From: Bolinopsis microptera
Taxonomy: Eukaryota; Ctenophora; Tentaculata; Lobata; Bolinopsidae
Assembly: GCF_026151205.1 (NCBI RefSeq)
Contig: NC_087072.1
Span: 18,119,669 to 18,183,668 of the forward strand
Direction of reading: 5' to 3'
DNA: 64,000 bases
How positions within the stretch are numbered: position 1 is the first letter of the stretch; the number at the start of each line of letters is the position of its first letter. Under the pieces are notes generated by a model that ran no database searches, was not told the DNA's origin, and was given only the letters and a program-made list of their open reading frames with translations. The translations under genes and the position numbers were made by a program. This document shows, piece by piece, positions 5,182 to 32,420 of this stretch.

Positions 5182-6323
5182 ACGCTGTTTACTAGAGTTT
5201 CTGAAACGACTAGAGCAAAAATGAGAGCACATTAGATCATGAATTATCAATAAATGGGAAAACACAGGGGTCTAATCGAGTAATATAAGTGTTAAATTCC
5301 AGAAATATTTCATTATCACCAAAATAAAAACTCGAAACCCAGAAGTCTGATCTAATACAGAAAATTAGGCTACAGACACACCGCCAGCGCTTCAGTATAG
5401 CCAACCATAAATGAACTGTAGACCTACTGGCGGAAATTATGACATACTTTGCGCTGTATCAAAGGACTGCAAATGTTATTGTTACTACACACAATTCGAC
5501 TATTCTGCCCTGTGCAAAGTGGAAACTAAATACAATGCGCCATTTCCGACGCTATATAATATCGGTTGAGATCGAGAATGTACGTAGAGCAGCTAGGTGT
5601 CATGTGCGCGCGCTGCACGCGCACAACAAAGCCGTGTCTGACTTATAACTACAAACATTTGAGTCAAAGCGCCTTACTGAACAGTCACAATGTTTGTGGC
5701 AAGTTTAAAATGCAGGAAGTGAGCGGATCAATATCCAACCAGAAAGAAGCTTGGAAATATAGAAATAAGTTCTAAATTGATCAAGTTTCTATTATTGGAC
5801 GTTAAATCAAACCCGGTAGCCTAAATAAAACCAACCAAAAATGTGTACATACTTTAAAACAACTTCGTAAATTTAACAGGGCGGGCCAAAAGTTGTCAGT
5901 CCTTCTTAAATCCGGATGCTAAAACTTGGCCTGTATAAAACTCCAATCATATGTTCGAGGATCTGTAAGTCAATAATAAAGAATGTGATATTTTAGCCAA
6001 ATTCTTTAAATACGCGAATATAAAACATTCAACGCATACCACAAGCTTCAAAATCGCAACAACGGTAGCGAGAGTCCTGAGTTAGTTTAAATTTATGTAT
6101 CCTGAATAATAAACTAAGATGGCAAAACAGAGCAGTTGTAGTAAGCACTTTTTACATCTTTTGACAACATTAATTAGGTCACCATCTCATCAGCAAGCAA
6201 TTGATAAGATTCCCATGCGAGTTAAGTTATCACTTGATCGAATCCTAGTAATAAACGTGAGCTTGAAAAGCTCTACATCGGAGTTACTAGAGATCCATTT
6301 TCCGGCTGGTATAAGTTCGGAAA
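5182..6323. other. Intergenic, no gene seen
   Basis: This is probably the promoter region of the minus-strand PH-BTK gene. CACGTG boxes occur near 5132 and 5169. Short ORFs at 5439-5775 and 6119-6340 show no recognisable domain or splice pattern. Confidence 0.4.
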
Positions 6324-6334
6324 TTCTAAACAAC

Positions 6335-6761
6335 CGGTAACACGACATCTGTCCGAAAGCGACATCTGTCCGAATCAGAAAATATGTTATTTGGACAATA
6401 GTTTATGTCGGATCCTACCGTACGATTTTCTTAAAACTTTCCATAAAGTATGGTGGTTATAGGACGAATAATATGTGTAAGTTTGAAGAATTTTTAAGAA
6501 AATCGTATCGTTGGATCTCCAGATATATGCTTTGGAACCACTGAGTACCACCGAATTGGATATATTTTTTGCGGTTAAGGTAATATCTTAAACTTGGCTC
6601 ATAGAAACTCGCTCAAACTTACACATATTATTCGTCATATAACCACCATACTTTATGGAAAGTTTTAAGAAAATCGTACGGTAGGATCCGACATAAACTA
6701 TTGTCCAAATAACATATTTTCTGATTCGGACAGATGTCGCTTTCGGACAGATGTCGCCCAA
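6335..6761. mobile_element. Foldback MITE with 11-bp target duplication
   Basis: Two arms of about 145 nt (roughly 6343-6489 and 6607-6758) are near-perfect inverted copies around a spacer of about 120 bp. Each end starts with CGACATCTGTCCG given twice in tandem. The element is flanked by the direct repeat TCTAAACAACC at 6324-6334 and 6762-6772. An 11-bp duplication with long inverted repeats would suit a Mutator-like mover, but no transposase is present. It lies between the PH-BTK gene and CCDC47. Confidence 0.85.
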
Positions 6762-15442: not shown

Positions 15443-16719
15443 TTCACAGGCATTAGTGTAGAAATAAAGTCCTCTGTTAAGTGTAAGGGGCCATCTTTGA
15501 GCTTGGATAGTATAGTAGTGTGCAACTTTGCCGAACTTAGTGACCTAAGAGTTCTAAAAAAATTATACAAGGCAATGAAGTAATGAAGAAATATTATTAT
15601 TTCTTAAACTTTTGAAAGCTAACATAACAGTTTTACTATAGATATGATAATTGTGATGATAATGACAAGTTAAACCAAAATTTCATCAACAATTAGAATT
15701 GAAAGGCCTGATGTAATTGCTATGACCAATTTACTGGTCAACTGGTGTTTCGTTGTCCCCAATCTTGTTTACACTCGGTCACTTGTCAAGGCATGTAAGG
15801 TCATTCAGCGAATTTTCTTTGAAATAAAATGATGTATTTGTGTAACATTTTGAAAGTTTATTGATGAAAAAATAGCATTTTTAAAAATCTACATGTATGT
15901 TTTTACAAAATAAAACTGTAAACAAACTAAATTCACAATTTTCAAATCTAATTAGAACTCAGTCTAAACCCTTTAAAGATGATGATAGCTGCTAATTACA
16001 GCTCTCAGAACAATATATTGTGACAAATAAAATTATGATCTGCAAAACAAAATTAAGACAGCCTTTTCAAACATAAACCAAGTTCTGGTAGGAGTGAAAT
16101 ATAACTGAGGTAGATAATGATTGACAAGAATTCCAATTAATCACAATTTCGAGACTAGAGAAGCTATAGAGAACACTCCAAATAAATATCAGCTTTTAAA
16201 GAAAAAAATTAAATTTAAAGAAATATTAGAAATTTGATAATACCTAATTAAAAGCAAAGACGTCTTTAAGGTTTTTTTATAAGTGTGGTGAAAATGACTT
16301 TAATAAAACAAAAGTTAATAAAGATGCCTTCAATCTTAACTCCCCCTGTAAGGAAAATCCATTAGTTAGTTAATATGTCATAATATAGTACCAAGGCAGT
16401 GCCAGTTTTCAGCATTTTGGACCGCAATCGTAGGGGCATGTAGTTGGTTCAGATAACTCTCACCCTGACGACGGCGTCAAGAAATTATCAAATTATGCAT
16501 TTGCGCCATACTGGACACATTTTATATTTAATATTCTGTGGTTTGTAGAAATTACCAAATCCATTCAATCCTCTCTGTGAACGAACAATTTACAGCTTAC
16601 TATAAGAGCCCAGATTTCCACTCAAATACTGGCTATTCCATAATGCTATAGGACCTCAAAATAAGATCGTGCTCTACAAATTCGATCTATTCAAAGAAAA
16701 ATAGTATTATAAAACATTT
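15443..16719. other. AT-rich intergenic, no gene seen
   Basis: This is the upstream region of the F-box gene. No ORF, exon or clear repeat could be supported. It ends at the inverted repeat of the next element. Confidence 0.5.
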
Positions 16720-17488
16720 GGTCATTGTAAAGTTTGCTTTGCCCATTTTGCTAACTTTTTGATTTAAATTTTTGAGCAGGTTGATAAAGAGCAATTTAAT
16801 CCTTTCTGATATCATTTTCATCTGAAGATTCCGAATTTTCTGAATTCTTTGGAATGAAGTTTCTATCTCATGTGGAGCAAAAGTTATGACCTGCTTTTCG
16901 ATGTGGAGCAAAAAAGTGTGGAGCTCCCCAATAAAATCTATGCTTTTTGACTATTTTGATCGCCATTTAACAAATAGATCCTGGACGTTAATTGCAAAAT
17001 ATTTTCACTGCCAAATCATAAAATGGACCTCAGCCAGTGTGGAGCAGTCGAAATATCCTCATATTTTTCGTCTCAACCAGGGGTAAACATTACAGTAGAA
17101 TCTCCGTCTTTTCACAAAATCTTAGTTTGAAGGAATACGCACCAGATAACATTATCAATAATGGTACACCTTGCTCAACCGATGCAGAGCAGCGAAACTA
17201 TTATACCCTAGTTGGGAATACTGATTGGGAAGAAACTGAGTTTTGAAAGTGAGTGTGATTAAAAACGATAAATACATCTAATCAGGCCATAAAAATATCA
17301 TTTTTTCTTGTGATTATGTTCAGACCCCCTGACTCTATTCTTTGGAACTGCTGATAAACCTAGTAATGCTCAACCATGTGGAGCAGAGGACTTTTACTGC
17401 ATAACATGGCTCCTCATCGGCTGATATGACTTGGATGAGAAATTAGAATGAGTATTTTAGCTTTTACAATAAATTACTACGGGTATCG

Positions 17489-18048
17489 GCCTTACAAAAT
17501 GACAGGCCTCACAAAATGACATGCCACATAGACCATGCTGTAGCTTAGGTTCCCTATACATTGAACCCTATTCCTTTTACTGTATGAAAGAAAAAGCATT
17601 AATTAACACTTCCTAAGGAATGATAATGACATAGAATCTATATTTCTTACATAAATATGGACGTTTTTGCTGTTCAGTCATTGCCCCGTCAAACTGTTAC
17701 CCAGCATGGAGACCAAAGTTTAGAATTTAACCCCAGAAAACCAGGTACTACCATGACTTATGTCAATCAAAGACTACTCTGGTCAAATAAAAAAACTGAT
17801 TTAGTGACTTTGGTAGAAGAAATGACAAAAAAATGACCTAGCCTCACAAAATGACAGTGTTATGCCTCACAAAATGACAGTTTTATTTTATGATACAAAG
17901 ATGGCATATTTATATTGGATGCCCCTTGCCTAATTATTGGTATTCTTAAACCCAGTAAGCTTATGATGAGCCTAAATGTGTTTGTTTGATCATCAATTTT
18001 GAACAAAATGCCTCACAAAATGACACCGAAAAGCCTTACAAAATGACA
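17489..18048 (+). repeat. Motif B cluster, left arm (six GCCTYACAAAATGACA sites)
   Basis: Sites lie at 17489-17504, 17506-17521, 17841-17856, 17864-17879, 18010-18025 and 18033-18048, in three close pairs. The sequence between them is not repeated. Conserved short sites in unconserved surroundings suggest protein-binding sites. Confidence 0.8.
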
Positions 18049-19819
18049 ATGTCTACACAGAACTAGGAGAAATACAAATTAATCAGCTTCCAAGTTTCTG
18101 TGACCTCTTACCTAAATCGAATACAGCTAATATATATCTACATGACTGCTCACCTGAAGAGGTGGCTAAGATCATATCGGAACTTAAGAATGGCAAGGCT
18201 AGTGATATACCAGTACATATAGTAAAGGCAGTATCAGGTATAATTAGTCCACTACTATCGGTATTGTATAACGAATGTATGCAACAGGGAGTTTTAAAGA
18301 CGACCTAAAAGTAGGTAAAATAAGTCCAATATATAAGAAAGAAAATGCTGAGCTTCTTGAAAATTACAGGCCTATCTCAACCTTAGCGATATTTGGTAAA
18401 ATACTTGAGAAGATCATATTCTCCAGGCTTTACAGTTTCTTTCAGTCGCAAGGATTATTATATGAAAATCAATATGGCTTCAGAAAAAATCATTCCACAA
18501 GCCATGCACTTAACTTCTCTGTCGACTACATTGAAAAATCACTAAGAGATAAAAATCATGTACTAGGCATCTTCATTGATTTAAGTAAAGCTTTTGATAC
18601 AATCTGTCATGATAAACTGCTTAAAAAACTGAATGATTATGGAATTCGAGGGACTGCAAATAAATTAATAGCCAGTTACCTCTCTAATAGACAGCAATAT
18701 GTTTCAGTACTTGGAGAAGAATCCGAAAAACTGTCTGTAATATTTGGTGTGCCTCAGGGGTCAGTATTAGGTCCCTTGCTTTTCATTATCTACATCAATG
18801 AAATATATAGAGTATCAGATCTAGGTAAGTTTATACTTTTTGCCGATGACACCAACATATTTGTTGTAGATAAATGTATAAAAACACTTTACTGCAAAGC
18901 TAACAAAATTCTTAAACTTGTTCATCAGTATATGAAGAGTAACTTGCTGCATATCAACACAAAGAAATGTTGTTATATCCACTTTAAGCCGAACTGTAGA
19001 AATGAACCAGATTCAAACACCAATGAATTAGAACTGACACTGAATAATATAATAATTAAAAAGGTAGAGGAAACTAAGTTTCTTGGAGTCATTATTGACC
19101 AAAAACTGAACTGGGATGCTCACTTAAGAGCGTTAAATAGTAAATTGAAATGTGAGATTGGTAGACTATGTGGAATTAGACGCTGTGTACCTAAAAAACT
19201 ATATAAGGACCTGTACCACACCCTTTTTGAATCACACCTATGTTATGGAATATCTGTTTGGGGAGGTGTATCAAATAATAAACTAGAAGCCATATTTAAA
19301 ACACAAAAGAAATGCATAAGAATTCTCTTTGGTGATAATGATGCGTACTTCAATAAGTTCAAAACATGTGCCAGAGTAAGGCCTATCACTAGGGATAAGA
19401 CCGGTAAAGTTATCAAGCAGATGTTAGGCAAAGATTTCTTTGAACTAGAACACAGTAAACCAATCTGTAACGAGTATAACTTCCTGACTGTCCACAATCT
19501 TCATAAGTTGCACTGTTTACTGGAAATGTTTAAAATTAATAAGTTCCAATCACCAGTCTCAATGTTCTCTTTATTCAACAGGTCACCAAGACGAGACAAC
19601 TACTTCATCCCACCCACTCCGTCCTCACTATTCATCTACCAATCAACCAGTATTTGGAATCACTGCCGTAAGTCAACAAGTGAAATAGACTTCTCCACTC
19701 CTATCAGTATATTCAAGAATAATCTTAAGAAAGCTTTGTTAGAACTACAATCTAAATATGACAGACAACTATGGTGCAGTTACAACTTTGATGCAAATGA
19801 ATTATCATTGAAATAGGTT
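18049..19819 (+). mobile_element. 5'-truncated, frameshifted non-LTR retrotransposon (LINE) RT copy
   Basis: The main ORF (18275-19816) encodes a reverse transcriptase of the jockey/CR1-like LINE class: NYRPISTLAIFGKILEKII, NQYGFRKNHST, GIFIDLSKAFDT (first catalytic Asp), GVPQGSVLGPLLF, then LFADDTNIF, with DD as the catalytic pair. The thumb and C-terminal part continue to the stop (CGISVWGG.., SIWNHCRKS). The RT N-terminal segment (18049-18294, including SPEEVAKIISELKNGKAS) is in another frame, joined near 18290-18300, so this copy has a frameshift. No endonuclease domain is present. The homology starts right after a motif B site, so the element is 5'-truncated or was recombined there. Confidence 0.93.
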
Positions 19820-21482
19820 AATTAACTAAACTTAATCATATGAGTAAACCACGGTGTTATTGCAAAGAACCATGACAAGGGTATCAGACCTATATTAATC
19901 TAAGAGACGAAACAAAACGAATCATCATACAACAAATTTTAAAATCCTGCGGCACAGGATCCTGTTGTTTTCCTACTCTGCCTCTCCCAAACCCCTCTCT
20001 CCTTCTCCTTCTTCAGGTTTATTCTACAATTTTTTAAATTAGATAGCAGATATATTTTCTTTCGAATGTAGTAATGGCATTATACATTATTTGGTATCGT
20101 ATGTATGTTGTGTTTAGTGTTTGCTAACTAGGTATGTGCTATATATTTTGAAGAATTTTGAGGCTCACGACGTCTCGTCCCATGGGTTGAGTTGCAAGCT
20201 GAGTATATGTTCAAATCGCCTTACTTCGTATGGTGAAACATCGACAGGTTTGCCTTGACCTTTCGGACGAGTGTTTGCCCACCGGGGATCCAAAAATATG
20301 ATCACCATGAACATTACTTTGACACGTGAACTTATCAAACGACTGTAATGATTCCATTAAATTTTCTTAGTACATTTAGCTAGTTTATAGTAGATACACA
20401 CGGTCACAGAATAGAGGAGCACAATTGGGCTCTTTGTTCTGCGACCGTGTTTCCTCGGTGGGCCGACAGGTTTTTGTTGTGTAGTAGTGCTGGGGAAAAA
20501 ACACGCTTTAAATATCAATGAATGTAAATATTGTTAATTGACATTAGTGCCACAGTTTATGTGGTAAAAACAAATTTATGGTCAAACATTATATATCGTA
20601 GAAGGGCATGATTTACCCACATCACTAAGCATCTGGATGGATAATTAGCACACAAGGATAAACTGAGCTTTAAACATGACCACCATCAATAGCATATAAC
20701 CATAGCTCCAAAATAAATAAATTGCTCTACATAGAAACATCTGGCCTGATCTTATCACATTGTGGTCCCCTGGGGTTCGGTAAAGCCCTTACAGGCAACT
20801 GGGTCCTTTTACCAGCCACAATAAAACTAGTCATGCCAGTACTGTCATAAACTGTAACCAACTATTTAAAAATAAGATATCTTTTGCTAGAATTTTAAAT
20901 TTTAAGCCATAGAGCAATCTTCTCAATTTTTAAATTTAAAAATAACATTTTACCCTAACTATGATGTGGTGGCATTTCATACTTAACTAAAATTCAACTT
21001 TGAAAGTCAATAGATTATTAGTCACAACAAAATTATAGTTTAAGACATCCATTTTGCATTGTGTTTCCATTATTAGAATTTATGATATGTATTGATTGAA
21101 TAATTGGTAATAAATTTAACTTTTGTTTTATTAACTTTTGTTTTATTTTCAGATTGAATTACTTTCATCATCTAAAATGGATCAGAAACAGTCAATACAA
21201 GAAGGGGTTAAAAATAATCATAATCTGACCGTTAACAATCAAGTAGCATTAAAAAAGTGTAGTTCTGATATCAAAACTTTGATTTCAAACTCTTTGATTT
21301 CAAACTCTGATTTCAAAAATCAACGAAATAAAGCTTCTATTTTGTGAAAGCAGAGAGTAATAACAACTCCTAAAACATGTCAAACGTTATCTAAACACTG
21401 AAAAGTGATCTATCCAGTCATAGAAAATATCAAATATAACCAAATACTGTGTTCAAGTATGAAAACAAAAAATGATTTTTAC
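19820..21482. other. Non-coding interior of the large TIR element
   Basis: No protein is supported here. The first part may be the LINE 3' UTR; the C-rich stretch around 19975-20015 is not coding. The hairpin at 20398-20452 is listed separately. Confidence 0.4.
20398..20452. other. Hairpin with 14-nt arms
   Basis: ACACGGTCACAGAA at 20398-20411 pairs with TTCTGCGACCGTGT at 20439-20452, with one mismatch. A second inner pair, GAGCAC...GGGCTC, flanks an AATT loop. It lies about 0.6 kb beyond the LINE stop. It could be a LINE 3' structure or part of the enclosing element. Confidence 0.55.
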
Positions 21483-22041
21483 GCCTCACAAAATGACATT
21501 TTTAAAACTTTTTCAAAGTATAAAAAATGTTCCTTTTTTAATATATTCTACTAAAAACAGAACTGGTATAATGTAAACAACATATATATCTAACAGTAAG
21601 ACACGTGAAAGAATAATGAAACTTTTTCCCAAATCGGATTTGAAGTGATGCCGTTTTGGGTTGTCATTTTGTAAGGCACTATCTCACGCGAAATTGCCCA
21701 ACTTTTTTAAATCATCCTTTTTCCTGTAAAAGCTATTCTAATCTTCAATCTATTATATTTATCTAACTGTCCTAGGTGAAATCAAATTTCTATATAGGCT
21801 GCTGTTAAAAAATGACAGCCGTGACGAAATTGTCATTTTGTAAGGCATGTTTTTTTGGACGATTTCAAAGATGACAATTTTTATCGCAAAATTTATGGTT
21901 TTTCAATCAAATTAACCCCCGGGAAGAAAAATATACCTGTTGAACTACCTATCTGGATAATAAAACAAGAACAAAACTCATTTTTGTGCATTTCAGAGCC
22001 ATCTCCTTTTTCGTGTCATTTTGTAAGGCCGATACCCGTAG
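21483..22041. repeat. Motif B cluster, right side
   Basis: Motif B copies lie at 21483-21498 (+), 21662-21677 (-), 21831-21846 (-) and 22014-22029 (-). The last belongs to the 28-bp block that is perfectly inverted relative to 17477-17504. Confidence 0.8.
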
Positions 22042-23558
22042 CAGAACAGATTGAAAAATTGTATTTAATAGGCTCAACCAGAGAGGAGCAGAATGGAATG
22101 ATAGATTGATAACACAACTATTTGTAAGGATCAGTGTTGTTATATTAGGATAAAGGAGGAATGATATCATCAATACTTAAGAAGCTGTTGATGTATGTAG
22201 TACTGTGTCCTTTAAAGAGAAATATGCCACCATAGAAAAAGACAATATGCTCAACCGTGAGGAGCAACAGGCTTTTCTACGGTAAAAAGAGTCTCCATGA
22301 TGGTCGATCTGTAGCCAATTTGTACGTAATGCAATTTAAAGTTTACTGGTATACTTTAAATACTTTTCTTACCATGATTGATGTTCCAGAACTGTTCAGC
22401 CAGAGTGGATCAGAGCTAGAAATGACATGTCATGTACGGGATTTCTCAACTGCCTAACATTTGATGAAGATCTCTCTTGCATGCGGCTGTAGAATGAAGT
22501 AGTGAGCTTCGAAAATCTAATACAACAGAAATCATCTCTGCTCCACACAGGTTGAGCACTGAATAGTTCCCGTGAAGTAAGTTTATTGACCACCAATATT
22601 ATAACATATTTTCTCTAGAATGAATAAAAATAATATCCCATGAAGCACTTAAAAGTTGTCTCTATTGATCAAAAGGAAGACCTCTTTTTGCTCCACATGG
22701 TTGAGATAGGCTGTTCTCGACTAAAGAGTCTGCATCAACGGTGAAAATATAGATACAGGAGTCAAGATGAAAATCACAGAAGTCACTTTATCTCAACCCA
22801 GAAAGAATTTAAAAGTTGGCAAATTTTTAACCATTTTGGGCTCCACAGGGTTGAGAGAAGTGTACTGAATATAAATATCCGTTTCAGTACTCAAAATAGA
22901 GTTAGTAATAGTTACCAAGCTAAAAAAATCTTACAGATAAATCAAATCAAATCAAAATATAATGACACAAACATCATCACACATCATCAAAAATATATCT
23001 ACTAAAGTTTAAAAATTATCTTTAATATATTGGCCTAAACAACCAAGTTAAAATGAATCTAATTTACATACCTAAACAAGATCTAAACAAAAGCATTATG
23101 AAAAGCTAATAAATTAGAGGGGTTTCAGCTAATAAGTTCATAGAGTTTCAACCAAAAACTTGACTGTTTAGCGTATGATTTTTGGTCTTGAAAATTGCCT
23201 AACTTTCAAGCTACTGCTCCACACAGGCTGAGCATTAAAAGTTGTCTTAACCGGGGCTTTCTGTGTAGATGGGACCTTTTTCTGAGAGTCTCAACCTGTT
23301 TTGACTGCCAGATTCAGTTACCAACGAGATTGCAAAAAGTTTAAAAATGTCACTTTGAAGCACTGATATGCTCCACATTGGCTGAGTAACACATATAGAT
23401 TACATGTTAAAGTGTCCAGTGAACATTTGTTTCCATCTTGGTGAAATATTAACAAAGGGTGAACACCAGGTGGCATGCTAGCTCACTAAATAGCTCAACC
23501 GGTCAAATTGTACCAATTTTGGCAGTCAAATTTGGGCAAAGCAAACTTTACAATGACC

Positions 23559-24169
23559 ATTTCTATTTTATACCTACACATTTGTAAATAACTAGATTTG
23601 TCTAACTTTAAATTATTTCAGAATTATAACTATTGTGGATTCAATAAAATAATTATCACTTTTGTATCCTTGTATCCTTGTATCCTACACAGGTAACGGA
23701 AATGTTCCATCGCTACTAGTGCGTATTATATATGAAATATCAGCAATCAAATATATACACATCTACTCCATCATTGAAAATAAGCTCACTTGGAAGCTTC
23801 AGAAGTTCCATGACTTTGTAAACTGTTAATAATGTCCCATGGCCGTGTGTGTACAATGTCTCGCCAGCTCATCGTTTGGTCATTTACATGATATGCAACA
23901 ACTTCCAATGAAATGCAGTCAATATTATATTATAGAACATCCAAATTACATGCATAGTAGTATCATGCTAATAAGAAAAAAGGTCATTAATATAATTTAA
24001 ACCAAACCTACTTTCATTATTCAAGCTAATTGTCGAATGACCCAATAAATCAGTAAGATTTATAGTCCAGAATATGCTTGTACAGAAAGCTGTTATAACC
24101 ATTGCTGCATTTCAAATAGATTTTGGAAGGTCAATTTCCAGTGATACTTTGATTGCTTGGACACTCTTA
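23559..24169. other. AT-rich spacer, no gene seen
   Basis: It holds a short GTATCCTT tandem near 23657-23685 and nothing else I can support. Confidence 0.4.
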
Positions 24170-26122: not shown

Positions 26123-26224
26123 AGGCCTCCCCCAGCCTCGGATCTTAGGATTAGATTTGCAAAAATTCCTGAGACACAGGTGCAAAAGTTAAGACAGCAG
26201 AATAATCCTAAGACAGCAGAATAA

Positions 26225-26545
26225 TCCTAAGACAAAATTTAAGAAATCCTGAGACAGCGAAAAATCCTGAGACAAAATTTAAGAAATCCCGAGACAGCGA
26301 AAAAACCTGAGACAAAATTTAAGAAATCCCGAGACAGCGAAAAAACCTGAGACAAAATTTAAGAAATCCCGAGACAGCGAAAAAACCCAAGACAAAATTT
26401 AAGAATCCTGAGACGCGCGAAAAAACCTGAGACAAAATTTAAGAAATCCCGAGACAGCGAAAAATCCTGAGACAAAATTTAAGAAAACCTGAGACAGCGA
26501 AAAATCCTGAGACAAAATTTAAGAAAACCTGAGACAGCGAAAAAT
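26225..26545 (+). repeat. 41-bp satellite in left foldback arm
   Basis: About eight units of GAGACAGCGAAAAAACCTGA plus GACAAAATTTAAGAAATCC are present, with point changes and one GACGCGCG variant near 26411. The inverted counterpart at 31985-32420 carries about ten units, including the same GCGCG variant, so the arms share a recent ancestor or exchange sequence. Confidence 0.92.
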
Positions 26546-27392
26546 TTTTAGATACAATTTATACAATAGCCACAAGAATATACATGGATATTACATCTTT
26601 TAATTTCTTGCAAAGAATATAATAAATACAATATTACTAGGTATAGTAGGAATGTCAATAAGTCAATAGAATTTGTCTGAAACCTCTATGTGCCTGCTAA
26701 TGAAGTGAGTATCCCAGATCATATCTTTCCAGATCATATCCCAGATCATATCTTCACAGATCATATCTTTACAGGTAGGACTGTATAATGGGGGCCCGAT
26801 GTTATAGCGGACATCATCTCCCCCCCCCCCCCCCTTACCCCTTCTTACCCCCAGTTCCATAGCGGATATTATGCCAAATTATTGGACGGAGATCGTCAAC
26901 TAATATTTCTTCGGATATTTCTCCGGTTTGCAGTTCCATAACCTTATCCGGAGACCATCTACGGTAATTTTGTTGATTCTCACAGAGCAAAGTGCAAAGA
27001 AACTGCCACAAACTGCTACAATCTCCGAGAAATCTACTTATTGAGTTATTGACTAGCTTGCTAAAATTCATCGGCAAATTACCGCTGCTCGAGTTACCTA
27101 GCCAGGCCCATTTCAGTTTTGAGTACTGGAGTCGGTTATCTAGTCAAAGCCTAGCTTTTTGGAACTTGCAAGTGCTTTTGCGGATTGTCGTGGATTTCGG
27201 CAAATAGTCGTGGATTTCGGCGATATTTTCAGATTATTCTTCAATGTCCTCAAACCTGAGCACTGGGACTACTTAAGTTTTTGCTACTATCTGAATTATT
27301 TGCTCAAGCTACTGGCTCGCTAGGTTCAAAGGTTTATTTCCTATTTATCATGAAAAAAAAAATTGTGCTGGGTAAAAGTTTACACGGTGTTC

Positions 27393-27460
27393 ACGCAGGT
27401 TTGAACACCCGACCTCGCGCAGAGCTAGCCGATCGCCTAGCCGCTTAGCTACTCGGGTGA
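27393..27460 (-). ncRNA. tRNA-like Pol III promoter segment (left arm)
   Basis: On the minus strand, a perfect A-box consensus TAGCTTAGCGG-type match (27441-27451) is followed by the B-box core GTTCAAACC (27398-27406) at tRNA-like spacing. The stems do not pair well enough for a functional tRNA. It looks like the head of a tRNA-derived SINE carried in the foldback arm. Confidence 0.6.
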
Positions 27461-27502
27461 TGTACTTATGAAATTTTTGATGTAAATATATATTTACCCC
27501 TT

Positions 27503-27793
27503 TTTACCCCCAGTTCCATAGCGGATATTATGCCAAATTATTGGACGGAGATCGTCAACTAACATTTCTTCGGATATTTCTCCGGTTTGCAGTTCCATAA
27601 CCTTATCCGGAGACCATCTCACAGAGCAAAGTGCAAAGAAACTGCCACAAACTGCTACAATCTCCGAGAAATTCCCGGAGAGCTTCATCTCCGTATAACT
27701 GTATAATACAGTAGACGGAGCCGGAGAATCATCACCGTAGAAATGGACCTCCGTCTAATAATTTGGCATAATATCCGCTATGGAACTGGGGGG
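27503..27793. mobile_element. MITE inside left foldback arm
   Basis: CCCCCAGTTCCATAGCGGAT at 27507 and its inverted copy ending near 27790 bound about 290 bp, with the inverted match running about 45 bp into each side. A related single-ended copy lies at 26848-27040, and the matching unit of the right arm is at 30714-31025. Confidence 0.75.
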
Positions 27794-29348
27794 TTAATCT
27801 GATTAAAAGCTACAAAAAATTCCAGAAATGAGATGGCTGGTTAACACCTACCTTTGGAAAGCTCTGATGAACCTGCCTGTGGAGAAATAAACGCACTTAA
27901 CTTCACCTCAATTGAGCAATAACTATTTATCGCTTATTACTTCATTTATTTTGGATGTACAGTGTGCTTCGTAACTAATTTATTATTACAAAGTTTACTT
28001 TCTAATAAGCTAAAACGACAACTAATCTTTCGTTTTACTCCCTACTGTACAGGTTTACTCGTCAATCCAGGTATATGAGAATTTGTGAGAATGGTCTTGA
28101 AACTCTGAAAAGAGGGAAGCAGTTTTGGGGACGGGGAGATTGAAGCGGGTGGGCGACAAATCAGGAAAACAACAATTTCAGGAAAACAACAATTTTATTT
28201 AGTATCAGTTACAGCAAACAAAAAATATATTTTATATAATATAATATAACTAGGACGAACTTTAGTTTAGAAATCTTGGGGGACTTGGAGTAGCAAGAGA
28301 TTGACTAGAAGGTATATACCTTTTACCAAAAACGTCGAAAAGAATCCTGGGTGATACAGGATCGGAGAGTACAGACCATAAAGTTTACGCACCCACCTTT
28401 GCCTCCAGAATTCTTGGTTGGTTGAAAATGTATGCTAACTTGGTCGTTTATACTCCAAGTCCCTTTGTTAAAAGAAGTAATATTATGTACGTCTGGAGTT
28501 AACTTCATTCAATAATAACAATATCAATATAGTCAATATCAATATCAGACTAAACTATCGAATAAATTATCAAATATTATTTGTTAATTCGATCTGAATA
28601 AAAATTTAGTTAAGTTAAGATATTAAATAATTAAAAACATTACAACAAGTGGTTAAAAACGCCCAAAATTGATCTGAGAGCTTTTCAGTCTATAATACAA
28701 TCATGATAGTAATATTAAGTGTGTTAAGGCCACAGGGGGGGGGGGGTCGAGGCTTCAAAAAATGCAAAATAATATTATGCTTTGAATCAATATATATTTT
28801 TGTGGTGGATACTTTGCCACCACTCATTTGTCTGTAGCTATTTTACTTTTTTTAATAAATGAGGTTAACCAATTCTTCCGAAATTGGCTATGCAATATTG
28901 AGGTTAACGAAATTGATGCTTGGATTTGATTTCATGCTAAGATATTTTGTTGTTTCGATCAACGAATAATAAATCGTAATTTTTATTTCGCAATTGGTTG
29001 AAAATGAAGGATCCAAAGTGGTTAAAAACGAGGTTAACCTCTTATTTCATTGATATCGAGAAGAATTGAGATGAAAGTTATTATCATTCATGAAGTAAGT
29101 TCAGTGTATTTTAATTTCAAAACGTAACTCGTACTAATTTATTACTTCAAATCTACTTCAAATCTAAAAAATGAGGTTAACCAGGTCAATTATAACCACT
29201 AAAATACATACATGAGTGTCTAATTTTCAATCAAACTCAAGACATTAGTTAGCTATATATTTGTAATAGAACGCTGGGAAGTTTGATCACGAGAAAAATA
29301 TGATTTGAAACAACTATGACTTGGTAGCGATATTGACCATTAACATAC

Positions 29349-30348
29349 GAACCCCCCCCCGGCCCCCCCCCCCCTATTGTAAGCCCCCCGGCTTACAATT
29401 GACCCCCCATGCAATTACACTGAGTCAATTGATCTCAGTATAATAACATGGGGGTTAATTGTCGGGGGTCAATTGTCGTACTAAGCCCTAGATTGTACCT
29501 GCTAATGAGGTGAATATCCCAGATCATAGCTTCACAGGTAGGACTGTTTAATGGGGGCCCTGATGTTATAGTGGACATCACTTCCGTCACTACGTAGTAG
29601 CTCGTGACACTGGGCTCCAGTTGGACGACCTTCGAACTGTTATGTGCGATCAAGACGTGTGGAGGCAGACAGTGAATGGGAGTTCGATCGAGGATCGCCG
29701 AAAGTAAGTAAGTTGTTCAATCCCCCAGTACCTTTATTATTATAATTACCCTCCTAGGCTCCTACATCCTACCCGTTTTTGATGCTGTAATCTTCCCGTC
29801 CCCAAAACCGCTAATTCCTTCTTTTCATAGTTTCAGGACCGTTCTAATACATACTCCTATACCTGAATTGACGAGTAATCCAGTACAGTAGGAAAGTTAA
29901 CTTTGTAGCTTTTTAGAAAGTTCGGAGTAATCACTCAGGTATAGTATCTCACAACGAAGCCCAATCTAAAATAAATGAAGTTATAAGCAATAAATAGGCA
30001 GTTATTGCTCAATTGAGCTGAAGTTAAGTGTGTTTATTTCTCCACGGGCCAGTCCATCGGAGCTTTCCCAAGGTAGATTTTAACCAATCTCATTTCTTGA
30101 CTGTTTTGTATCCTTTAATCAGATACGGGAGGGGAAAGTGATGTCCACTATAACATCAGGGCCCCCATTATACAGTCCTACATGTGAAGCTATGATCTGG
30201 GATATTCACCTCATTAGCAGGTACAATCTAGGGCTTAGTACGACAATTAACCCCCATGTTATTATACTGAGATCAATTGACTCAGTGTAATTGCATGGGG
30301 GGTCAATTGTAAGCCGGGGGGCTTACAATAGGGGGGGGGGGGGGGTTC
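29349..30348. mobile_element. Smaller foldback nested in the centre of the large one
   Basis: The segments 29349-29585 and 30132-30348 are inverted copies: C/G-runs, then TATTGTAAGCCCCCCGGC, then a block ending with the same AGGACTGT..GGGGGCCC module seen in the outer arms. Its interior (29790-30125) is a diverged direct copy of 30365-30715, so one member seems to have inserted next to or into another. Confidence 0.8.
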
Positions 30349-30713
30349 ATTTGTCGCCCACCCGCTTCAATCTCCCCGTCCCCAAAACTGCTTCCCTCTT
30401 TTCAGAGTTTCAAGACCATTCTCACACATTCTCATATACCTGGATTGACGAGTAAACCAGTACAGTAGGGAGTAAAACGAAAGATTAGTTGTCGTTTTAG
30501 CTTATTAGAAAGTAAACTTTGTAATAATAAATTAGTTACGAAGCACACTGTACATCCAAAATAAATGAAGTAATAAGCGATAAATAGTTATTGCTCAATT
30601 GAGGTGAAGTTAAGTGTGTTTATTTCTCCACGGGCAGGTTCATCAGAGCTTTCCAAAGGTAGGTTTTAACCAGCCATCTCATTTCTGGAATTTTTTGTAG
30701 CTTTTAATCAGAT

Positions 30714-31025
30714 TAACCCCCCAGTTCCATAGCGGATATTATGCCAAATTATTAGACGGAGGTCCATTTCTACGGTGATGATTCTCCGGCTCCGTCTACT
30801 GTATTATACAGTTATACGGAGATGAAGCTCTCCGGGAATTTCTCGGAGATTGTAGCAGTTTGTGGCAGTTTCTTTGCACTTTGCTCTGTGAGAATCAACA
30901 AAATTACCGTAGATGGTCTCCGGATAAGGTTATGGAACTGCAAACCGGAGAAATATCCGAAGAAATGTTAGTTGACGATCTCCGTCCAATAATTTGGCAT
31001 AATATCCGCTATGGAACTGGGGGTA
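30714..31025. mobile_element. MITE inside right foldback arm
   Basis: This is the inverted counterpart of the 27503-27793 unit, with CCCAGTTCCATAGCGGAT ends. Compared with the left copy it contains an additional stretch (AGAATCAACAAAATTACCGT) also seen near 26960-26990. Confidence 0.75.
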
Positions 31026-31070
31026 AAAAGGGGTAAATATATATTTACATCAAAAATTTCATGAGTACAT

Positions 31071-31140
31071 CACCCGAGTAGCTTAGCGGCTAGGCGATTG
31101 GCTAGCTCTGAGCGAGGTCGGGTGTTCAAACCTGCGTGTA
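31071..31140 (+). ncRNA. tRNA-like Pol III promoter segment (right arm)
   Basis: A-box TAGCTTAGCGG lies at 31079-31089 and B-box core GTTCAAACC at 31124-31132. It is the inverted partner of the left-arm copy, with a few substitutions. Transcription from the two copies would run outward, away from the centre. Confidence 0.6.
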
Positions 31141-31984
31141 CACCGTGTAAACTTTTACCCAGCACAATTTTTTTTTCATGATAAATAGGAAATAAACCTT
31201 TGAACCTAGCGAGCCAGTAGCTTGAGCAAATAATTCAGATAGTAGCAAAAACTTAAGTAGTCCCAGTGCTCAGGTTTGAGGACATTGAAGAATAATCTGA
31301 AAATATCGCCGAAATCCACGACTATTTGCCGAAATCCACGACAATCCGCAAAAGCACTTGCAAGTTACAAAAAAGCTAGGCTTTGACTAGATAACCGACT
31401 CCAGTACTCAAAACTGAAATGGGCCTGGCTAGGTAACTTTTGATTGATTCGAGCAGCGATGAATTTTAGCAAGCTAGTCAATAACTCAATAAGTAGATTT
31501 CTCGGAGATTGTAGCAGTTTGTGGCAGTTTCTTTGCACTTTGCTGGGGGTAAGAAGGGGTAAGGGGGGGGGGGATGGGCCTGGCTAGGTAACTTTTGATT
31601 GATTCGAGCAGCGATGAATTTTAGCAAGCTAGTCAATAACTCAATAAGTAGATTTCTCGGAGATTGTAGCAGTTTGTGGCAGTTTCTTTGCACTTTGCTG
31701 GGGGTAAGAAGGGGTAAGGGGGGGGGGGGGGGGGGGAGATGATGTCCGCTATAACATCGGGCCCCCATTATACAGTCCATATGATCTGTGAAGATATGAT
31801 CTGGGATATGATCTGGAAAGATATGATCTGGGATACTCACTTCATTAGCAGGCACATAGAGGTTTCAGACAAATTCTATTGACTTATTGACATTCCTACT
31901 ATACCTTGTAATATTGTATTTATTATATTCTTTGCAAGAAATTAAAAGATGTAATATCCATGTATATTCTTGTGGCTATTGTAT

Positions 31985-32420
31985 AAATTGTATCTAAAAA
32001 TTTTTCGCTGCCTCAGGTTTTCTTAAATTTTGTCTCAGGATTTTTCGCTGTCTCAGGTTTTCTTAAATTTTGTCTCAGGATTTTTCGCTGTCTCGGGATT
32101 TCTTAAATTTTGTCTCAGGTTTTTTCGCGCGTCTCAGGATTCTTAAATTTTGTCTTAGGTTTTTTCGCTGTCTCGGGATTTCTTAAATTTTGTCTCAGGT
32201 TTTTTCGCTGTCTCGGGATTTCTTAAATTTTGTCTCAGGATTTTTCGCTGTCTCAGGATTTCTTAAATTTTGTCTTAGGATTTTTCGCTGTCTTGGGTTT
32301 CCTTAAATTTTGTCTCAGGATTATCTGCTGTCTTAGGTTTCCTTAAATTTTGTCTTAAGACTTTTCGCTGTCTTAGCTTTTTTTGACATCTCAGGTTCGC
32401 TTAAATTTTGTCTCAGCTTT
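31985..32420 (-). repeat. 41-bp satellite in right foldback arm
   Basis: About ten units of TCTTAAATTTTGTCTCAGG plus TTTTTTCGCTGTCTCGGGAT are present. The outermost units (32300-32460) are more diverged, as expected for older units at the edge of a slipping array. Confidence 0.9.

Follow-up and report, generated by a model that had tools for sequence, protein, structure and literature searches.

Nested mobile elements in a 6.8-kb region of the Bolinopsis microptera genome: two DNA transposon families, each with its own array of oriented short sites, and a LINE

In this work, we analysed a stretch of 64,000 nucleotides from the ctenophore Bolinopsis microptera (RefSeq assembly GCF_026151205.1, contig NC_087072.1, positions 18,119,669 to 18,183,668 of the forward strand), hereafter the window, and focused on a 6.8-kb region (16720-23558) that a sequence-only reading had described as one element with terminal inverted repeats (TIRs), whose two arms would conserve only short sites. 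This region consists of three nested mobile DNAs, i.e. an element A, an element C inserted in A and a long interspersed nuclear element (LINE) inserted in C (Table 1). Three independent movements are the simplest account of such a nest, and the nesting itself is ordinary. Copies of A and C were further collected from the whole genome (264.7 Mb), and the short motifs that they carry were compared with those of a third family, B.

Element A is bounded by perfect 26-bp TIRs, found exactly where the sequence-only reading had placed them, and by a 4-bp target duplication, which is ATTT in the window copy. Genome-wide, the left end was found at 18 places and the right end at 17, which makes 17 copies with both ends and a left end on its own, and the ends so collected proved the same as in the window. 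A relaxed pattern (up to three mismatches) gave 35 matches with 0 mismatch and one with three, the reversed-pattern control giving one; this three-mismatch match (L040), at control level and with no partner end in the 9.8 kb read, was not retained as a copy. In all 17 two-ended copies the right end has 0 mismatches and the left end 0 or 2 of 26. Twelve copies measure 2202-2239 bp, two 412 bp and three 6.8-9.1 kb. Identical 4-bp flanks (ATAT, ATAA, ATTT, TTAA, TTAT, GTAT, CTAT or ACAT) were present in 16 of the 17, the sole exception being L024; since L024 matches L025 at 97 % over 1055 bp, both flanks included, the two probably represent one insertion later duplicated along with its surroundings. 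At L017, A sits in an apparent C2H2 zinc-finger exon (the array being recognised by eye), and its flanks, once fused with the second ATAT left out, remain open throughout their 258 codons. The lone left end (L011) has 508 bp of matching sequence; no right end was detected in the adjoining 17 kb and no unpaired right end in the relaxed search, a match in L026 that differs at 9 of 26 positions being ascribed to chance. One A-end and one C-end pattern had no exact match in viral contigs.

The twelve 2.2-kb copies of A are 98.5 % alike (mean divergence 1.5 %, range 0.3-4.9 %). A similarity search with 2101 of the 2231 bases of L012 returned 23 matches, all in the 18 known loci and none below 93 % identity, so that family A looks like a recent arrival. 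It holds no long open reading frame (ORF), the longest overlapping A in L012 being 98 amino acids (aa). The search for an autonomous, transposase-encoding relative, as suggested by the sequence-only reading, returned none, whether through ends with up to three mismatches, the similarity search with L012 or the long copies examined. The three long two-ended copies (window included) owe their length to LINE or C inserts, L009 and L010 being lengthened by LINEs with endonuclease and reverse transcriptase domains. The LINE of L009 (832-5849), inserted at A position 1804, is near-complete, with ORFs of 555 and 1114 aa, the longer one having an N-terminal cysteine-rich stretch besides its endonuclease and reverse transcriptase domains; as the 555-aa ORF has its first listed ATG in A sequence, immediately beyond the insert, this LINE may have lost a little of its 5' end. 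Position ~754-760 of A (window 17478) was hit twice independently, by C in the window and by the LINE in L010, a few bases apart, through chance or a shared target preference.

When compared with the 2.2-kb copies, A in the window breaks off at its position 760 and picks up again at 5320, and the extra 4.56 kb are an inserted TIR element of another family, C, which carries the LINE. The interruption extends over 17480-22040; TA is doubled at the ends of C, where A stops and resumes, and C begins with CGGGTATCGGCC and ends with its reverse complement. As the ends of the insert between the doubled TA are the ends of family C, the perfect 28-bp internal inverted match (17477-17504 and 22014-22041), which is exact as reported, does not mark two arms: it combines the 25-bp terminal repeat of C with its TA duplication and a C/G that matches by chance. 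C is broken at its position 573 by the LINE, which has a 513-aa ORF with an RVT_1 domain and a 15-bp tail repeat at its 3' end. No endonuclease domain was found in this ORF and the LINE is therefore apparently 5'-truncated.

Element C is unrelated to A, measures ~1.46 kb, duplicates TA and has at least 40 copies, a lower bound as 40 places were scored per end out of 83 and 75 candidates; it was found alone at other genomic places. TA was present on both sides of all 13 two-ended copies examined (window included), 11 of which, measured inside their invariant outer C and G, have 1372-1475 bp, with a mean divergence of 1.3 % among them. At L027, no right end of C was found within the 8 kb read. 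No long ORF was found in C either (the longest overlapping it in L036 has 88 aa), and four longer copies besides that of the window (L034, L041, L042 and L043/L044) were not retained as autonomous ones, being interrupted copies, whose inserts were not scanned for transposase domains. The 1281-bp insert of L034 (778-2058) is bounded by inverted repeats (likeness of at least 80 % over 59 bp) and contains the 9-mer TAGCCGGCT 28 times, both strands counted, which points to another motif-array element; the inserts at L042:414-3137 and L044:1-4837 hold many TCAGTCCTCCTCA-type repeats.

These data bear directly on the idea of a single TIR element of 6.8 kb, with arms diverged everywhere but at protein-binding sites. 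The perfect ends and the perfect internal match would agree with it, but the native A is ~2.2 kb long, 12 other copies lack the interior, and what fills the window copy there belongs to another family, found at many loci between duplications of its own, so that we give this explanation practically no credence.

Two motifs had been reported as repeated many times in the region. Both occur far above shuffles, with all window matches inside the region, but they do not belong to one element: in the window, motif 1 (GCTCCACA-NN-GGTTGAGC) is confined to A and motif 2 (GCCTYACAAAATGACA) to C. With up to two mismatches, motif 1 occurs seven times in the window, where shuffles average 0.09, and all seven are inside the element. 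Gapped scoring (GCTCCACA-N1-2-GGTTGAGC, maximum 16) detected 10 sites with a score of at least 14, and 0 outside the element. A perfect-palindrome form of motif 1 was discarded, having 0 matches genome-wide with up to one mismatch (controls 2 and 2). L012, a copy free of inserts, has 12 sites with a score of at least 14, the first six on the minus strand and the next six on the plus strand, with the switch at the centre; lowering the threshold to 12 raises the count to 16, while 200 dinucleotide shuffles gave 0.7 on average and never more than 4. Strand order is unchanged in the other eleven 2.2-kb copies, which have 11 or 12 sites (score of at least 14), while the window copy keeps 10. As for motif 2, 10 exact matches were found in the window, all inside, where shuffles average 0.12 with up to two mismatches allowed, and with this tolerance every one of the 13 two-ended C copies examined (window included) has 10 of them, in the same strand order, i.e. 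seven plus then three minus; nine of the ten sites obey the nearest-end rule. The motif-2 core ACAAAATGACA was absent from the five other A loci scanned (L009, L010, L011, L012 and L024). That sites are kept and sequence is not holds for the left against the right arm of one copy, and does not hold between the 12 copies of 2.2 kb; because these keep their whole sequence, comparing them does not clearly demonstrate selection on sites.

The sites are also close to evenly spaced, bearing in mind that this grid was noticed in the data before testing, so that all its p-values are optimistic. In A, the mean spacing is 157.5 bp (standard deviation, sd, 15; coefficient of variation, CV, 0.097), an evenness matched by 0 of 100,000 uniform placements and by ~4 of 200,000 placements with a 100-bp exclusion. 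A scan of periods of 120-220 bp on the 12 sites gave a best period of 157 bp (vector length 0.89), equalled by 1 of 4000 uniform placements, by 43 of 4000 once the observed 144-bp minimum gap is granted and by 0 of 20,000 with a 20-bp minimum gap; when all 16 looser-threshold sites are included, the scan peaks at 156 bp (vector length 0.72; p 0.004 against uniform placements). For the 10 sites of C, the best period is 178 bp (vector length 0.95; 0 of 4000 placements as good), and it is 179 bp when doublets are merged to seven sites (~4 of 20,000 as good).

Such even spacing could be expected if the element had been built from an ancient tandem (satellite) array with units of ~157 bp, of which the sites alone can still be recognised. 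The right arm has short secondary repeats that end in AAAAGTTG and go in the same direction, as do the four best-scoring pairs of A units (scores 22-24), which are all right-arm, three of them being neighbours, and a 39-bp piece of C that contains a doublet and recurs 169 bp on at 82-85 % identity. Against it, polarity reverses at the centre of A, and the stretches between A sites are barely more alike than shuffles: their mean local score is 16.7 vs 16.2, none exceeds the 99.9 % point (28), and in-register identity is 0.282 vs 0.276 shuffled (sd 0.004, i.e. 1.4 sd above). A plain worn tandem repeat is, owing to this lack of likeness, not supported as the source of the A sites, and we regard a satellite origin as improbable.

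The motif-1 search of the genome gave 240 matches, and loci were drawn from the ~100 listed; among these listed matches, most loci read belong to family B (~1.53 kb, ends GGTCAAGTTCGGAGACAACCTGTACA), which has ~61 copies (61 plus and 62 minus end matches). Twelve loci were fetched for motif-1 matches: nine have both B ends and L050 is part of a B copy, while L051/L052 were rejected as B copies. The 4-bp duplication, mostly ATAT, was found in eight of the nine loci where both ends were read. A and B have in common their GGTCA ends, the length of their duplication and motif 1, and are otherwise unlike, with only short matches (E 0.02 or worse); the shared motif 1 and GGTCA ends suggest that one enzyme serves both families. 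B holds 12 motif-1 sites at threshold 12 (shuffle mean 0.4, maximum 3), and 8 of its 10 sites with a score of at least 13 follow the strand rule. No overall grid was detected in these 10 sites (p 0.43 uniform, 0.14 with a minimum gap); the five minus-strand sites on the left are even (154, 152, 154 and 167 bp, CV 0.044, ~6 of 100,000), a subset picked after seeing it. The grid holds in two of the three families, and B counts against its generality. At G000:C6:16055395-16058463, end matches hint at a B inserted in another B.

With the three families in hand, a role of chromatin can be weighed, in which the protein bound at the sites would be one of host chromatin or transcription, and their nucleosome-scale spacing would order nucleosomes over the element, with one open site per linker, so that the ends are joined or the element is accessible. 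Both grids are rare in random placements and the intervening units of A are not detectably alike, as this explanation would have it; the two periods nevertheless differ, B shows no overall grid in spite of having the motif of A, base composition between sites shows no clear wave, and the grid was spotted before it was tested. We hold it to be rather unlikely.

The explanation that we favour, and consider probable, is that the region is a nest of three mobile elements in which A and C are non-autonomous and moved in trans, their motifs being bound by their own transposase or a partner protein. A would be a young non-autonomous DNA transposon, moving by cut-and-paste through a transposase made elsewhere; C, a second non-autonomous DNA transposon, would have inserted into A, and the apparently 5'-truncated LINE then into C. 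The motif of each DNA transposon would be a binding site for its own transposase or partner protein, and their large number, with one orientation prevailing in each half, would concentrate bound protein along the element. Same-orientation sites in each half may thereby load transposase, on the model proposed for the multiple sites of Galileo (PMC3688188). The ends, duplications, copies, nesting and sites, with their polarity and spacing, were observed directly; the mode of movement, the binding of the sites and the transposase as binder we infer. Of the earlier picture, i.e. a TIR element with protein-binding-like sites in unlike arms, the TIR and site architecture stands, and binding by a transposase is a putative part of it.

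Several observations weigh against this explanation. No transposase gene or autonomous copy was found among the copies examined. Site columns are not significantly better kept across copies, 11 of 228 varying vs 166 of 2003 outside (p = 0.07). Sites span the whole length of A and not its ends alone, which is more than a transposase should need. Finally, the 412-bp form L024 has 0 full motif-1 sites (score of at least 14), only half sites, and the 412-bp copy L025 has a clean target duplication; full sites may thus not be essential, unless this form was shortened after insertion.

A bolder proposal would be that the nucleosome-scale grid of sites (~157 bp in A, 178 bp in C), one orientation prevailing in each half, is bound by a protein that phases nucleosomes over the whole element and links it to the transposition machinery, which we consider unlikely. 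If so, selection would act on the positions of the sites, not on the sequence between them, and a full-length, near-even array with one polarity per half, present in two unrelated families without recognisable inter-site repeats, would tie the architecture of transposons to chromatin. That binding sites for a transposase can be repeated near the ends is already known, and nucleosome-scale spacing would be the novel part; no mention of evenly spaced sites along a TIR element was found in the titles and abstract openings of the open literature. This search covered the open literature, and the families may already be catalogued, e.g. in Repbase or Dfam. Families A and C being young, multi-copy and nearly identical, the idea is readily testable.

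Non-autonomous TIR DNA transposons of the miniature inverted-repeat transposable element (MITE) kind are characterised by short perfect ends, a target duplication of fixed length, no long ORF and many near-identical copies. A resembles them in all these respects and differs from typical MITEs by its greater length, by motif-1 sites throughout, by the central switch of polarity and by the near-even spacing. The hAT elements, with an 8-bp target duplication, were discarded for A, which duplicates 4 bp, as were piggyBac and Kolobok, which duplicate TTAA only, whereas the duplications of A are varied (ATAT, ATAA, ATTT, GTAT, CTAT, TTAT and ACAT besides TTAA). The Sola superfamily also has a 4-bp target duplication, a likeness to A in duplication length. 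C, with TA duplicated in 13 of 13 two-ended copies examined, shares this duplication with the TIR elements that insert at TA (such as Tc1/mariner or Mirage). Chapaev (CMC) elements have a 3- to 4-bp duplication, a range that includes the 4 bp of A and B, and invariable CAC...GTG ends (PMC4079192); A and B begin with GGTCA, and this group was rejected on that basis. In the Foldback-like Galileo of Drosophila, several sites for the DNA-binding domain of the transposase lie in long end regions and are proposed to serve binding specificity; the extra sites are in tandem repeats of a 1.2-kb TIR, three sites being reported (PMC3688188). A differs from Galileo by its 26-bp TIR, its unlike arms and its sites outside recognisable repeats; the long, internally repetitive TIRs of Foldback and Galileo are not found in A, whose inter-site units are not detectably homologous.

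Table 1. Coordinates of the features of the nest, in window positions.
Feature	Position	Strand	Remarks
Left target duplication of A, ATTT	16716..16719	.	Identical 4-bp flanks in 16/17 two-ended A copies
Left part of A (~2.2-kb family) up to the C insertion site; last two bases = TA target of C	16720..17479	+	97-98 % identity to other A copies
Left TIR of A, 26 bp	16720..16745	+	
Left-arm motif-1 sites, score >=14/16, centres 17037, 17182, 17376	17029..17384	- (all)	Gapped scoring; two of three also in the <=2-mismatch search
Left TA target duplication of C	17478..17479	.	
C (~1.46-kb family) inserted in A, itself interrupted by the LINE	17480..22038	+	
Left terminal repeat of C (the 'internal' match), begins CGGGTATCGGCC	17480..17504	+	
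Motif-2 sites of C, starts 17489, 17506, 17841, 17864, 18010, 18033 (and a seventh, 21483)	17489..18048	+	
LINE inside C, apparently 5'-truncated, 15-bp tail repeat at 3' end	18053..21146	+	
513-aa ORF with reverse transcriptase domain	18275..19816	+	RVT_1, E 4e-37
Minus-strand motif-2 sites of C, starts 21662, 21831, 22014	21662..22029	-	
Right terminal repeat of C	22014..22038	-	
Right TA target duplication of C	22039..22040	.	
Right part of A	22041..23558	+	Similarity to other A copies
Motif-1 sites of A right of the insert, score >=14: 22081, 22257 (minus); 22548, 22698, 22848, 23224, 23378 (plus)	22073..23386	.	Gapped scoring, part also in the <=2-mismatch search
Right TIR of A, 26 bp	23533..23558	-	
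Right target duplication of A, ATTT	23559..23562	.	

Two other repeats were observed in the window. A large inverted structure occupies 26201-32384, with many inverted pieces between ~26.2-29.6 kb and 30.1-32.4 kb, the largest being 545 and 546 nt (98-99 %), and 40-bp tandem repeats (CCTGAGACAGCGAAAA-type) at its outer ends; it is either Foldback-like or an inverted duplication. In addition, a 144-bp inverted repeat (99 %), whose arms are 126 bp apart, lies at 6343-6756.

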